The position numbers were made by a program, and so were the translations under genes. 64,000 nt of DNA from Verrucomicrobiaceae bacterium. Lineage in GTDB: Bacteria > Verrucomicrobiota > Verrucomicrobiia > Verrucomicrobiales > Akkermansiaceae. The first letter of the stretch is position 1, and each line of letters opens with the position of its first letter. This document shows positions 1-15,308 of this stretch, piece after piece. The notes beneath the pieces are model-generated. The model was not told the origin of the DNA and made no database searches. It worked only from the letters and a program-made list of their open reading frames with translations. The stretch lies in the NCBI GenBank assembly GCA_027491155.1, contig JAIXWR010000009.1:1-64000 (forward strand). Reading direction: 5' to 3'.

Positions 1-98
1 CACCAGCCACCAGCCACCAGCCACCAGCCACCAGCCACCAGCCACCAGCCACCAGCCACCAGCCACCAGCCACCAGCCACCAGCCACCAGCCACCACC
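1..98. repeat. Perfect heptanucleotide tandem repeat (CACCAGC)x13
   Basis: Thirteen perfect copies of the 7-bp unit CACCAGC fill positions 1-91, followed by a degenerate copy. The array touches the left edge and may continue beyond it. It is open in the frame of the following ligase gene and would encode a PATSHQP heptapeptide repeat, either an N-terminal tail or a linker before the WGR domain. It belongs to the same class of 7-bp repeats seen near 13.3, 13.7, 57.6 and 59.1 kb. Confidence 0.95.
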
Positions 99-3241: not shown

Positions 3242-4852
3242 CTATTTCAGACTTCCCCCCGACCATCCCTCCCTTCGCACCGCCCGCAACCGGAAGAAGC
3301 AAGAGCCACCAGTGCCAGATTCCGACGAGAATCGCACACCTTCTGTCTCTCCATCGATCTCAACGCTATCCGGCTCCACATCGCTCCAGACGCGGAGGTC
3401 GGCAGAACGCTCGACCAGCAGGTCGGCGCTGGGTAGCCACTTCTGGCGCACCACGACCTGAGTTGACCGGCTCTCGACCAACCCTCTCAAAGGGTGCGGA
3501 GTGAACAATCCAGGATCTGAACCCAATGCATATTCCACCAGATTTGGCAGACCGTCGGCATCCGGATCCTGATCTTCATCCCGGAGATCGGCAGCCATTT
3601 GCTTCGAATCGATCCAGTCCTGATAGGTGGGGCCGGTTACCGTCAGATCGGCCTCGGCTTCACCGGAGTAGTTCGGATTGTCGACCACCGCCCGAACCCG
3701 GTGAATTCCAACCCGATTGGGAATCTCCACCACGCCATTGTAGGTAATCCGGACCGGCAGACCGGGAGGATCCGTTGCAACCGATGCTCCGGGATAATCA
3801 CTTCCCTTCGAGATGACCGCCTCGCTGAGGATGACTTTCGCGGGGGAAGGGTCGATCCGGGCAAAGGCCTCGCCCGTCACGATCAGATTCTGCCGGGTAA
3901 TCAGGTGATAGGAGCCCGCATCAACGGGAACTCCGGCCGTAAAAGCCACGGGCTCGGTTCCCTGCCGCAATACGGTTCGGATCATCGGGGATCCAATCGG
4001 TCCCCAGTTGGCAGCAGGATAGTACCACTGAGGATGCTTGACCCATAGCACCGCATCCCGGTCCGCATCCACGCCGACTGATGGCAACCGATCGGACAGG
4101 GCGAAATTCAGGCCGTTGTAGGGACCTGCCACCCCGGTCGGCGCGAAGCCCGTACGTTCGGTATTGTAGGAAACAAGAACGGCATATTCTTCGGGCAAGG
4201 TCACCGGCTCGGAGAACGGTATCGTCGCCTTGAACGCGAAGCCGCTGTATGGATAGGGCTTGCCGTTCGACAGCGTTTCAGGCCGCCACGGGACGTGAAC
4301 CCAAGCCGTGCTTGATCCGAGCGGACTGAAAGCGACGGCATCAGCTGCACCTCGATTCACGCCTAGCAAGCTGACGGTCACCGGGTGGGTGTAGCCCTTG
4401 TTGTCGGCGGAAGCCAAGGCAGGCCAGTCCTTTGCACGAGCCCATGTGACCAGTATCACCTCGATTCGGTCCACGACATATCCTTCTCGCCGCGGAGAAA
4501 TGACCACATCCCCCAAACCCGCCGTCTGCTGGGCTGATGCAGAGAGACTGACATACGAGAGCGCAAGCGATTCCGGAATCCGATCGAAGGACAACTCGGT
4601 TCCGCTTGAGATGATTGGACGATAACCAAGGCCATCCATCGTATAGCCGGGACCTGCGATCCATGGCCTCCCGGCTTCGGAGAAACTTCGGCTCAGCTCC
4701 ACGAATTGGGGCGATTGCGCCTCTGCCATCAATGGCATCTGCGGTAACAGGCCCAACAGGAACTTGAGGCCACACGCTCGCCAACCGCCGGAGATGCGCG
4801 CCCGCCGTGGTCGCTGCCGGCCAGCATCACCTCCCCTTCGGTCGCATTTCAT
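3242..4852 (-). CDS. Exported MBG-domain protein with calcium-type repeat
   Basis: About 536 residues. The start is placed at ATG 4850-4852 (ATG 4859-4861 is an alternative); the longer open frame upstream runs over a terminator and is unlikely. A basic N-region is followed by a hydrophobic stretch (LKFLLGLLPQMPLMAEA) that reads as a long signal peptide. The central region is beta-rich. Around residues 380-460 there is an MBG-like module (VATDPPGLPVRITYNG, ending VVDNPNYSGEAEA). A DEDQDPDADGLPNLVEYALG repeat follows, of the thrombospondin type 3-like kind common in verrucomicrobial surface proteins. The C-terminus (FFRLRA) is typical of these proteins and no PEP-CTERM is present. Likely a secreted or surface adhesin-like protein. 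Confidence 0.75.
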   Translation of the reverse strand: MKCDRRGGDAGRQRPRRARISGGWRACGLKFLLGLLPQMPLMAEAQSPQFVELSRSFSEAGRPWIAGPGYTMDGLGYRPIISSGTELSFDRIPESLALSYVSLSASAQQTAGLGDVVISPRREGYVVDRIEVILVTWARAKDWPALASADNKGYTHPVTVSLLGVNRGAADAVAFSPLGSSTAWVHVPWRPETLSNGKPYPYSGFAFKATIPFSEPVTLPEEYAVLVSYNTERTGFAPTGVAGPYNGLNFALSDRLPSVGVDADRDAVLWVKHPQWYYPAANWGPIGSPMIRTVLRQGTEPVAFTAGVPVDAGSYHLITRQNLIVTGEAFARIDPSPAKVILSEAVISKGSDYPGASVATDPPGLPVRITYNGVVEIPNRVGIHRVRAVVDNPNYSGEAEADLTVTGPTYQDWIDSKQMAADLRDEDQDPDADGLPNLVEYALGSDPGLFTPHPLRGLVESRSTQVVVRQKWLPSADLLVERSADLRVWSDVEPDSVEIDGETEGVRFSSESGTGGSCFFRLRAVRREGWSGGSLK

Positions 4853-12133: not shown

Positions 12134-13531
12134 TCAACTTGCAAGGATCGCGGCGCAGCGGCGGGCATTCTCGCCGCGGCTGAAATGCAGCCGGGCATGA
12201 TCCCGGGCCGCCGCCCCCCGCTTCGCCCGCTGCTCGGGATCCGCCGCTTCGTTCAGGGCCGCCAGCATCGCCGCCACGTCGCCGGGAGCCACCACCCAGC
12301 CCCCTCCGCTTTCCGCCACCCATCGCGCCATGCTGGACTCGGCCGCCCCGACCACCAGCAGCGGCCGCCCCGCGGCGAAGACCCCCTGGGTCTTGCTCGG
12401 CAGCATGGTGCCCGTCCAGGAACTCTCCAGCGACGCCAGATGCACATCCGCACTCCGCAGATGGGCCGCCAGCTCTTGCGCCGGCGCGTAATCATGAAGC
12501 TCGACCGGCAGCCCGGGATTCGCGCGGATGAACGCCTCGATCTCCCCCCGCCTTTTTCCACGACCGTGGAAGACGAAGCGGTAGCGCGGCCGACGGTCCC
12601 CACCCGCTTGCGCAGGACTCAGGAGCCCCCGCGCGGCCTCCAGAATCTCATCAAATCGGTGTCCCAGCCCCATATTCCCCGAATACATCACCACCACCTC
12701 ATCCAGCGCCCAGCCGCGTCGGTTCCTGAGTTCGCGCGCCGCCTGTGTCACGGCGGTCCCGTCCTCCCCGCCCGCTGGCGTGCTGGATTGCTCCGCAGTT
12801 GCTGAGTCCGTGGTCGCCCAAAGCGGCACCCAGTCCACCCCGGCCTGCGTGCCGGTGCCTTGCCGGGTGCTGCCCGCCAGCGCCTCCACCCGGCTGGCCA
12901 TGTCCGGTCCCAGCGTCAGCAGTGCCGCGCGCCGCTTCCCGCCCATGCCCCAGCGACCCAAGGCCGCCAGCAGCCGGTGCGCCCCGCCGCCGTGCGCGAG
13001 CATCCCGTGGGCCACCATCACATCCGGATACAAATCCATCACCCAGTGCGCGTGGTCCGCCCCCCGCAGCTTCGACATCCCCCGCGCCAGCACCGACAGA
13101 TAGGGCGGGGTGGTCAAGGCCACCACCCGGTCAAACCGGTTCCGCGGCAAAGCCAGCCACGCCGCCACCCCGAGATAGAACCCCGCGTAATCCAGCAACT
13201 TCCCCACATGGTTCCCTCGCCCGAACGATGTCGACCCGATCCGCAGCACGCGGACCGGGGATGGTGGATGGTGGATGGTGGATGGTGGATGGCCACTCGC
13301 AGCAAGCCCCTCCCGATCTTCGGTCTCCGGCTTTCGACTTCCGAGCTCCGACCTTCGACCTTCGACCTTCGACTTCCCGACCTTCGACCCTCCTCCCGCA
13401 TAGCCACCTGCCGAGCAAAGCACCGTCATCTGATGTCCCGCCTCCACCAGCTCCTCAGCCACCGCCTCCAGCATCACCCCCGTCGGCGCCGCATCCGGCG
13501 GATAGTACTGATTGATCAAGACCAGGTGCAT
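12134..13531 (-). CDS. Glycosyltransferase family 4 with repeat-encoded insertion
   Basis: Start at ATG 13529-13531 (MHLVLINQYYPPD), about 465 residues. The N-terminal Rossmann domain begins with INQYYPPDAAPTG and continues through VDFYG-like elements to HWVMDLYPDV; the C-terminal domain has VVMYSGNMGLGH, FHGRGKRR, a CHDY-like strand and PSKTQGVFAAGRPLLVVG, the nucleotide-sugar binding region of GT-B enzymes similar to WcaI. Between TVLCSAGGYAGG and PVRVLRIGSTSFG about 45 residues rich in Lys/Arg/Ser/Pro are encoded by heptanucleotide repeats (13257-13395); this is a foreign in-frame insertion in a surface loop. The frame is intact, so the enzyme may still work. Donor and acceptor are unknown. 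Confidence 0.85.
   Translation of the reverse strand: MHLVLINQYYPPDAAPTGVMLEAVAEELVEAGHQMTVLCSAGGYAGGGSKVGKSKVEGRRSELGSRKPETEDREGLAASGHPPSTIHHPPSPVRVLRIGSTSFGRGNHVGKLLDYAGFYLGVAAWLALPRNRFDRVVALTTPPYLSVLARGMSKLRGADHAHWVMDLYPDVMVAHGMLAHGGGAHRLLAALGRWGMGGKRRAALLTLGPDMASRVEALAGSTRQGTGTQAGVDWVPLWATTDSATAEQSSTPAGGEDGTAVTQAARELRNRRGWALDEVVVMYSGNMGLGHRFDEILEAARGLLSPAQAGGDRRPRYRFVFHGRGKRRGEIEAFIRANPGLPVELHDYAPAQELAAHLRSADVHLASLESSWTGTMLPSKTQGVFAAGRPLLVVGAAESSMARWVAESGGGWVVAPGDVAAMLAALNEAADPEQRAKRGAAARDHARLHFSRGENARRCAAILAS
13257..13395. repeat. Heptanucleotide repeats inside the glycosyltransferase gene
   Basis: Two blocks of 7-bp repeats lie within the reading frame. About 13262-13295 carries four to five copies of GATGGTG, and 13318-13395 carries about ten degenerate copies of CGACCTT (variants CGACTTC, CGAGCTC, CGGCTTT). 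They are separated by a short unique segment. The units resemble, in period and mode of degeneration, the repeats at 1-98, 13598-13712, 57602-57706 and 59069-59104. Confidence 0.85.
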
Positions 13532-13597: not shown

Positions 13598-13712
13598 TTC
13601 AAAATCACCAATCGACCATCAAAAATCGTCAATCACCGCCCCCCTTGGCGCTCTTGGCGTCTTGGCGGTTCAACTTCTTCCTCTTTTCTGCCCACTGCCC
13701 ACTGCCCACTGC
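13598..13712. repeat. Mixed short tandem repeats between glycan genes
   Basis: Three repeat blocks follow each other: degenerate AATCACC-type heptamers (about 13600-13637), three CTTGGCG units at 8-9 bp spacing (about 13647-13671), and three perfect CCCACTG units (13687-13709). The last block provides the final codons of the acetyltransferase gene, replacing its natural C-terminus with SEQWAVGSGQ-type residues. Confidence 0.8.
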
Positions 13713-14200
13713 TCACTCGGCACTTTCATCCACACCTCATACGCCCGCACCATCGTCCCCGGCGGCACCACCGCCCCCGGGCCGACGAAGGCGCAGGCGG
13801 CGATCCAACTGCCCTCGCCGATCTCGATCGGCCGGGTGATCAGGTCGAAGCTCTCCTTCCTGAAATCATGATTGCCCGTGCACAGGAAGGCGCGCTGCGA
13901 AAGGCACACGTTCGACCCGATCTTCACCTGGTCCAGACTCAGGATCAGCACCTCGTCGCCGATCCACACCTGATCGCCGATCTCCACCCGCCACGGCATC
14001 GTGATGTTCACCCGCGAGCGGATCACCACACCTTGTCCGACCCTTGCCCCGAAGAAGCGCAAAGCCGCCACCTTCAGCGCCGACGGCACCGGAAACCAGG
14101 GTGCGAACAGCAGCGAGCGGCAAAGCCACCACAGAGCTTCCTTCCACCGCGGCACCCCGCGCACGAAGCTGGAGTTGTCGAATTTCGAGAGATTGAGCAT
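13670..14200 (-). CDS. WcaF-like hexapeptide-repeat acetyltransferase
   Basis: Start ATG 14198-14200 (MLNLSKFDNSSF), 176 residues. The early KFDNSSFVRG and a WWL.RSLLF segment followed by PSALKVAALRFFGARVG match the N-terminus of colanic-acid acetyltransferases of the WcaF group. Left-handed beta-helix repeats follow (VVIRSRVNITMPW, VWIGDEV, VKIGSNVCLSQRAFLCTGNHD, IEIGEGSWIAACAFVGPGAVV), with the catalytic His in GNHD. It would O-acetylate a sugar of the repeat unit in the cytoplasm. The last 12 residues are encoded by a CCCACTG repeat and are not part of the fold. It lies between two GT4 genes in the leftward glycan cluster. Confidence 0.88.
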   Translation of the reverse strand: MLNLSKFDNSSFVRGVPRWKEALWWLCRSLLFAPWFPVPSALKVAALRFFGARVGQGVVIRSRVNITMPWRVEIGDQVWIGDEVLILSLDQVKIGSNVCLSQRAFLCTGNHDFRKESFDLITRPIEIGEGSWIAACAFVGPGAVVPPGTMVRAYEVWMKVPSEQWAVGSGQKRGRS

Positions 14201-14237
14201 CGCTTGAAGACAGGGACCGATGGGAAGGCCCGCAATG

Positions 14238-15308
14238 TCACCGCACACACCCCGGCCGCGGCCCGCGTCCCAGCACCCATTCATAGCAGGCGATCATCTC
14301 CCCTGCGATCCTGTCCCACGCAAAGCGCTCCGCCACCACCGCCCTTCCTCGTCCCCCCATCGCGGTCAGCACTTCCGGGCTTCTGCGTGTCGCATCGTCC
14401 AACGCGGCGGCAATGCCATCCACACTCACCGGTATCCACCACCCGCAGGATTCCTCTTCCAGCAACTTCCACGGTGCGCCGTGGGTCGTGATCACCGGCA
14501 GCCCGTGCGACAGGGCCTCACCGACGACCATCCCAAAATTCTCGGTGTGGCTGGGAAGAACAAAGAGGTCTGCTTCTTGGTAAGCCTTATCCAAAGCTTC
14601 GCCACTCAAGGCACCGGTGAATTCAATCTCAGCCCCAAGCTGCGCTTGAGCCACCATCGCCTCAAGCTCTCCTCGGTGCCCGGCCTCGTCCGGCCCCACG
14701 ATCTTTAGTTTCCAACCCACCGGGCGGACCCTTGCCCAGGCCTGCAGCAACAACGTCAAGCCCTTGACGGGATAGAGTCTCCCCACGAAGAGCGCGACGC
14801 GCCGTTCAAAGAGCGAGGGTGCCTCGGGCATGAACTTTCTTACCGGATGCGTCTCCGCGCTCCTCCTGGTCATGTCAATACCCCAAGGAATCATGACCAT
14901 AGCCTTCTTTAAGCCAAGCTTCCGCAGGTTGGCTGCCTCACGTTCCGAGGTGGCATGCAAGGCCGAAACCATGTTCAGAAGTCTCTTCTGGTAGAGGATC
15001 CAAGCCACCTTCTTCTTCCGCCCCTTGTGCGCCAACGCCCAAGGTTCCAGCATACCATGCAAAGTCACCACACAGGGAACTCCACGCCGCCGCCAAGCCT
15101 GCAAACGAATAGCCAGTCTCGGCGACCAGATCCCATGAAAATGCACCACCTCCGGCAGATCGGACGCAGCCGGCAAAATCGAGGCGTGTTGCGAAGAGCG
15201 GCTCACCGACACCCCTTGCCTTGCAAGACTCGTGACTAACCCACGGGTCGCGGCTTCAACCCCCCCGGCACGCTGAGGGTCAGACAATTCTTCAAAACTT
15301 ACATTCAT
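14238..15308 (-). CDS. Glycosyltransferase family 4
   Basis: 356 residues with a GT-B layout. The N-domain contains GGVEAATRGLVTSLARQG and VVHFHGIWSPRL; the C-domain contains VALFVGRLYPVKGLTLLLQAW, LKIVGPDEAGH and DLFVLPSHTENFGMVVGEAL with the E-x7-E-type motif that binds the nucleotide sugar. Start ATG 15306-15308 overlaps the upstream stop (ATGA), showing translational coupling with the preceding GT4 gene. It is predicted to be cytoplasmic or membrane-associated and to add one sugar to the undecaprenyl-linked repeat unit. Specificity cannot be read from the sequence. Confidence 0.9.
   Translation of the reverse strand: MNVSFEELSDPQRAGGVEAATRGLVTSLARQGVSVSRSSQHASILPAASDLPEVVHFHGIWSPRLAIRLQAWRRRGVPCVVTLHGMLEPWALAHKGRKKKVAWILYQKRLLNMVSALHATSEREAANLRKLGLKKAMVMIPWGIDMTRRSAETHPVRKFMPEAPSLFERRVALFVGRLYPVKGLTLLLQAWARVRPVGWKLKIVGPDEAGHRGELEAMVAQAQLGAEIEFTGALSGEALDKAYQEADLFVLPSHTENFGMVVGEALSHGLPVITTHGAPWKLLEEESCGWWIPVSVDGIAAALDDATRRSPEVLTAMGGRGRAVVAERFAWDRIAGEMIACYEWVLGRGPRPGCVR

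Follow-up and report, generated by a model that had tools for sequence, protein, structure and literature searches.

Tandem heptamer arrays lie in frame within a loop of a WcaI-like glycosyltransferase and recur in other genes of a Verrucomicrobiales genome

How do tandem repeats of a kind that mostly lies between genes come to sit inside an enzyme gene, and what becomes of the protein? The question is raised by a glycosyltransferase gene in a window of 64,000 nucleotides (bases 1-64000 of contig C31, from a genome of 46 contigs and 5.73 Mb), the features of which are collected in Table 1. The gene gives a Pfam match to Glyco_trans_1_4 and scores 109 bits against NCBIfam WcaI (NF007640), and we call it WcaI-like because this score lies below the cut-off of 276. 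An AlphaFold model (pLDDT 85.7) finds its best PDB matches in MshA, WaaG and BshA, and the product is on these grounds predicted to be a GT-B glycosyltransferase. The gene adjoins an acetyltransferase reading frame and sits in an apparent polysaccharide cluster.

Table 1. Coordinates of repeat arrays and genes discussed in the text (window numbering unless a locus is named)
Feature	Position	Strand	Basis
WcaI-like GT4 glycosyltransferase gene, bearer of the arrays	12134..13531	-	ORF, Pfam, NCBIfam, AlphaFold model, PDB matches
Loop-1 insert, protein residues ~46-91	13257..13395	-	predicted low-confidence loop, strands 34-39 and 93-97
Array GGATGGT x4.9	13259..13292	+	TRF, 100% matches; period-7 score 27
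Spacer separating the two arrays	13293..13313	.	sequence
Array TTCGACC, low end drifted	13314..13389	+	TRF 13333-13389; run 13314-13373, score 25.5
WcaF-like acetyltransferase ORF, adjoins the glycosyltransferase gene	13670..14284	-	NF007797, 200 bits, passes cut-off of 192
Array CTGCCCA x4.3, 3' end of the WcaF-like ORF	13688..13717	+	TRF, period-7 scan
Array CACCAGC x13.7, start of contig C31	1..96	+	TRF; word recurs at end of contig C15
Contig ends on 7-bp arrays	window 1-96; starts of L105, L123, L129; ends of L148, L157		

Two heptamer arrays lie within the gene. The first, of 34 bp, reads CCATCCA on the coding strand and encodes HPPSTIHHPPS; the second, with 8.0 copies and 78% matches (TRF) beyond its drifted portion, reads GGTCGAA and encodes KSKVEGRRSELGSRKPETEDR. 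Along the coding strand the GGTCGAA array comes before the CCATCCA array, and the reading frame stays open across both, as the first-pass annotation had reported. The best period-7 score of the gene is 30.5, compared to a maximum of 14 and a mean of 6.0 in 2000 codon shuffles; these shuffles, together with a Markov resample of the genome, rule out a chance origin of the arrays, and the shuffles also rule out protein-level selection as the source of the 7-bp period. In the AlphaFold model, residues 45-87, 223-228 and 243-246 fall below a pLDDT of 50 and are located in what we term loops 1 and 2, with residues 45-87 linking the two predicted strands between which the insert had earlier been placed. 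The description of the insert as about 45 basic residues was overstated, since residues 46-91 comprise four lysines, four arginines and three histidines against five glutamates and one aspartate. Since 7 equals 1 modulo 3, translation of a perfect heptamer array passes through all three frames successively, and a word without stops is consequently open in every frame. Both words of the gene are stop-free in all frames of both strands, a property that is permissive rather than remarkable because 72% of random 7-mers of the same G+C content share it.

The neighboring DNA is repetitive as well. The CTGCCCA array encodes the last residues of the WcaF-like reading frame if that frame is read through to its stop, and the gap between the two genes (13600-13670) holds further repetitive words adjoining this array (CTTGGCGCT x2.8, AATC-type).

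Orthologues differ in whether they carry such arrays. Our alignment comprises 35 genes, out of 44 loci with a relative; left out were L009 (which equals the window), L055, L060, L061 and L066 (contig end), as well as five loci presumed from BLAST values to be duplicates (L039=G010, L040=G006, L045=G001, L052=G015 and L059=G012), and loci L025-L038 and L067-L102 lie outside it. We find 26 period-7 arrays with a score of at least 12 in 10 of the 35 genes, against a mean total of 0.1 in codon shuffles (20 per gene). Periods 14 and 21, both multiples of 7, yield 15 and 7 arrays, respectively, and no other period between 4 and 20 yields more than one. All 26 arrays lie in loop 1, 2 or 3, at positions equivalent to residues 45-93, 225-266 or 302-314 of the window protein; a sub-threshold run in L019 (9.5) falls outside these loops. 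The sister gene L010 and 24 others of the 35 lack an array at this threshold, and the loop of the window protein represents a net gain of 30 residues over L010. A single conserved insertion shared by all orthologues, the outcome that the first-pass annotation took as marking an ordinary loop, is thus not what the family presents. Its proposal that intergenic-type heptamers can occupy genes without destroying them is borne out by the array-free orthologues and by close relatives that vary both in the presence of arrays and in their words.

The words themselves differ from lineage to lineage. L011 carries CCACTGA, GGGCAGA, CCATGCC and CTGCTCC, L041 CAAGACG and GGATTGC, L051 GGTCGAA among others, L054 GGATCGA and GATCCGC, and L057 CATCCGC and others; the peptides they encode vary likewise, even among arrays that share a loop. 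The gene of Luteolibacter marinus NBU1238 holds four arrays. CCACTGA contains a TGA, which drifted units keep out of frame. In a tree built without the loop columns, the window gene and array-free L010 are grouped with a support of 100/100, and array presence changes at least eight times in loop 1, at least six times in loop 2 and at least four times in loop 3, with labels that count two weak arrays, in L044 (8) and L049 (9.5). Shared descent of a GGTCGAA loop (window, L044, L051 and L090) could account for part of this recurrence. Some loop words match words found elsewhere in the genomes: the GGATGGT family occurs at ~30 other places in the genome (E up to 1), CCACTGA is present at a contig end of Luteolibacter marinus, and GGTCGAA recurs in L051. 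In L054, L041 and L057, the loop words differ from the arrays nearby. Relative to L010, the gene has a dN of 0.22 and a dS of 0.79, values that point to constraint on the gene as a whole and not specifically since the insertion.

Individual orthologues show further rearrangement around these loops. In L051, a 265-bp GGTCGAA/GGTCGGA run (1999-2263) directly follows the gene, loop 1 of which holds the GGTCGAA word and also a 12-bp repeat. Loops 1 and 2 of L054 (4978-6675) and L056 (5001-6707) are 93.5% and 98.4% identical, compared to 79-87% for core pieces, which reflects recombined loops or another cause; an apparent C-terminal identity of 0.28 in this comparison is a misalignment, with BLAST giving 79%. 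The L061 orthologue (2148-2899) is out of frame and misses precisely the stretch that separates loops 1 and 2 (residues 44-257), through either repeat-mediated loss or assembly collapse. L055 has a frame break near its C-terminus and no arrays. In L090 (31-420), a GGTCGAA array lies in loop 1 and homology stops right after it, past residue 70; an open frame on the other strand follows, perhaps an inserted element. Finally, L058 holds a non-heptameric element of ~122 bp in three in-frame copies, one per loop (2812-2933, 3757-3878 and 4034-4183), with 78-81% identity to the third copy, and L056 has the same element in loop 3.

The arrays of the window belong to a genome-wide population. A scan of 1,118,245 bases, 86.5% of which are called coding, recovers 22 period-7 arrays (score of at least 12), compared to none in a second-order Markov resample. 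Periods of 6, 9, 12, 15, 18 and 21 are as frequent, with 21 to 32 arrays (control, 1 to 2), because of codon structure; once multiples of 3 are set aside, only 7 (22 arrays) and 14 (23 arrays) stand out, against 0 to 10 for the others. Lowering the threshold to 11 over 1,518,245 bases gives 36 arrays. Six of these are counted as in-frame genic arrays, a small share beside the coding fraction of 86.5%: the glycosyltransferase and PurL have two each, and an Snf2 helicase and a carboxynorspermidine decarboxylase one each. An automatic coding test had flagged five; one, at L109 13128, was rejected as a gene on the opposite strand likely ends there, and the two window arrays, which the test missed, were added. 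An array at L152 9826, within a called gene, was left out as at threshold level (score 11), those at L299 19093 (83.5) and L286 2125 (12.5) stand outside the in-gene count, and those that gene calls place inside genes at L104 and L129 are read as intergenic, a later start being likelier. Most of the remaining arrays are intergenic or at contig ends, and the population as a whole, widely scattered and largely outside genes, has the makeup of the dispersed heptameric tandem repeats of bacteria. Six of 71 contig ends have a 7-bp array within 120 bp and form three pairs with one word per pair, and five further ends carry arrays of 6, 8 or 10 bp; long arrays seem to be points at which the assembly breaks. 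The resemblance to the tandem heptamer repeats of cyanobacteria, known as STRR, that had been drawn for these arrays does not extend to the host, which is not a cyanobacterium: its nearest genomes are Verrucomicrobiales and include Haloferula sp. BvORR071 and (Neo)luteolibacter marinus (NCBI: Verrucomicrobiaceae, Verrucomicrobiales), and the record titles of several other related genomes say Akkermansiaceae.

Elsewhere in the same genome, arrays in frame are found in PurL (scores 24 and 14), carboxynorspermidine decarboxylase (21.5), LigA (17.5) and the Snf2 helicase. The helicase has arrays at residues 241-257 in 6 of 30 loci of the genus, its own included, with at least three word types (AATC-type in L251, L252 and L268, others in L253, L257 and L267, the last GCGGATG); L254, L255, L256, L258, L259 and L260 have a shorter, array-free loop of 13 residues there, and residues 430-442 of L267 hold another array. 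Helicase loop lengths vary by 2-3 residues and not by whole units. The decarboxylase has 48 residues at a loop where structure 9eaf has 9. Its gene is present in 18 of 18 genus genomes, and among 17 relatives the matched span falls short by 10-20 residues in 11 and by 2-7 in the other 6, so that the array makes up only part of the loop. At a site with 3 residues in 4glx, LigA has 244, mostly a Kinase-PolyVal domain with the array at the insert end; matches to it are continuous in 5 of the 18 genomes, split around the insert in 11 and without verdict in 2. This insert (L174:270-3032, equal to G000:C5:25984-28746), which adds ~244 residues and contains the Kinase-PolyVal domain (PF18762), lies within the adenylation domain. 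LigA and loci L178 and L182 were found by similarity search and are outside the 6 of 36. The array of the AAA protein L178 is weak (8.5) and not counted as firm, nor are those of the UvrA-like L182 (13, 10, 9.5 and 9.5), which aligns with solved UvrA without extra length; in its reading frame (1-2265), heptamer-type peptides replace native sequence rather than lengthen it.

We favor, at a probability of roughly two-thirds, the reading that a heptamer process operates across the genome and leaves lasting arrays in genes only at loops that can accommodate them in frame. The insert would then be a permissive, disordered surface loop that two genomic heptamer arrays came to occupy specifically in this lineage. 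The position of the arrays, their frame, their recurrence in three loops of the glycosyltransferase and in other genes, their lineage-specific words and their absence from L010 are all observed. The 7-bp process would make and alter tandem arrays throughout the genome, mostly between genes, and may spread them by replication slippage and exchange between arrays; selection would then purge genic arrays unless the loop is tolerant, the length keeps the frame and the frame read contains no stop. In-gene arrays would on this account be nearly neutral, which we infer.

Arrays also come in neighboring pairs, and these raise an alternative in which a mobile hairpin element, composed of a G-rich array, a spacer and a C-rich array and akin to MITEs or to Rickettsia palindromic elements (RPE), inserts whole, between genes and at times within them without breaking the frame, and is edited by slippage afterwards. 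Among 37 neighboring pairs, 18 run from G-rich to C-rich and none the reverse, while of the rest 7 and 5 combine two arrays of like kind and 7 have one neutral arm; the survey covered 2.13 Mb of partly overlapping sequence with identical pairs removed, and the 18 are less than independent, given related loci (L054 and L056) and a common word family. The window arrays share the G-rich-first order, several pairs span the gap from a stop to the next start, a whole pair is in frame at the PurL-PurQ junction, and five intergenic pairs fold better than shuffles (z of -4.0 to -8.8). Four in-gene pairs fold less well, with a z of -1.0 to -2.0 for three from relatives and of +0.65, no better than shuffles, for that of the window. 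A likeness between GGTCGAA and GGTGGAT agrees at 5 of 7 positions, too little to count. Neither a target duplication nor a terminal motif has been established for the pairs, and many in-gene arrays are single. Set against the traits of MITEs and REPINs, inverted array pairs are seen in part, and Y1 transposase genes, present in 18 of 18 genus genomes, have no visible link to arrays. We consider a hairpin element of this kind unlikely.

Two further explanations attribute a role to the insert itself. One, raised by the first-pass annotation as a slip-strand switch, holds that a change of one unit shifts the frame and turns an exopolysaccharide enzyme on or off; the array is a perfect 34 bp with a unit not divisible by three, the gene is in an apparent polysaccharide cluster, and heptamer phase variation is known from the promoters of Haemophilus HMW adhesins (PMC8262952, PMC2424069). 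In the alignment, however, each of the 10 genes with arrays keeps an uninterrupted reading frame, in a sample chosen by long open frames in which broken genes would tend to be missed, and none of the 35, at one genome per species, is off frame by a unit change; in-frame arrays are also found in the housekeeping genes purL and ligA, where switching off would be harmful. The switch is thus unsupported and, in our judgment, highly improbable. The other would make the insert a selected functional segment of the protein, with the DNA repeats as a by-product. Long loops are kept in several lineages, and the high loop identity of L054 and L056 would fit such a role; on the other side, the peptides are variable even within one loop, word families recur between genes, the sister L010 manages without the insert, and codon shuffles that keep the amino-acid content lose the period. 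This, too, we regard as very unlikely.

Several known systems resemble the arrays in part. Rickettsia palindromic elements are reported to be dispersed and to lie in frame in unrelated genes, metabolic ones included (PMC10969869), as do the repeats here (glycosyltransferase, Snf2, PurL, decarboxylase and LigA); an RPE, however, is an element of ~150 bp with a conserved peptide, in contrast to the short tandem heptamers here, whose words are diverse and whose peptides are not conserved. Geobacter metallireducens has four heptamer repeats in 49 copies, within and between genes, with the single consensus GGACCGG and a proposed regulatory RNA (PMC2700814), unlike the many words, in-frame loops and turnover between orthologues described here. 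The TAACTGA arrays of Beggiatoaceae are reported as intergenic with some in ORFs, and then mostly at the protein periphery (PMC4679880); this single word has stops in all frames of one strand, whereas our arrays occupy mid-enzyme loops. A stem of heptamers (TDNGATT or NNTGAGT) in the P6b region of the Nostoc trnL intron repeatedly changes class at one site (PMC4476775), much as words change at one site here, although that stem is intron RNA structure and these arrays are protein-coding. Nostoc heptamers and the Xanthomonas GGGAATC repeat are described as dispersed, mostly intergenic, tandem and under-represented on the coding strand of ORFs (PMC4692102); the arrays here differ from these cyanobacterial and Xanthomonas repeats in phylum and in words. 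Within the open-licence literature, by title or start of abstract, we found no paper that treats heptamer arrays in Verrucomicrobia or describes how they repeatedly enter the loops of orthologues.

Many bacteria have an excess of heptamer arrays, yet explanations for them are few. Here, their conversion into protein can be watched, with the same loops holding different words in sister lineages and array-free relatives at hand for comparison. Where the 7-bp period comes from, how words change and how far enzymes tolerate new loops thereby become testable questions. The arrays also call for caution, since assemblies seem to be interrupted where they lie and a loop insert in one of these genomes is not necessarily functional. 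More speculatively, and with the odds leaning against it, the arrays might be self-renewing elements of fixed polarity (G-rich 5', C-rich 3', on either strand) that repeatedly settle in frame in the same permissive loops of unrelated enzymes, exchange their words over evolution, and would so provide a standing source of new disordered segments, housekeeping enzymes included.
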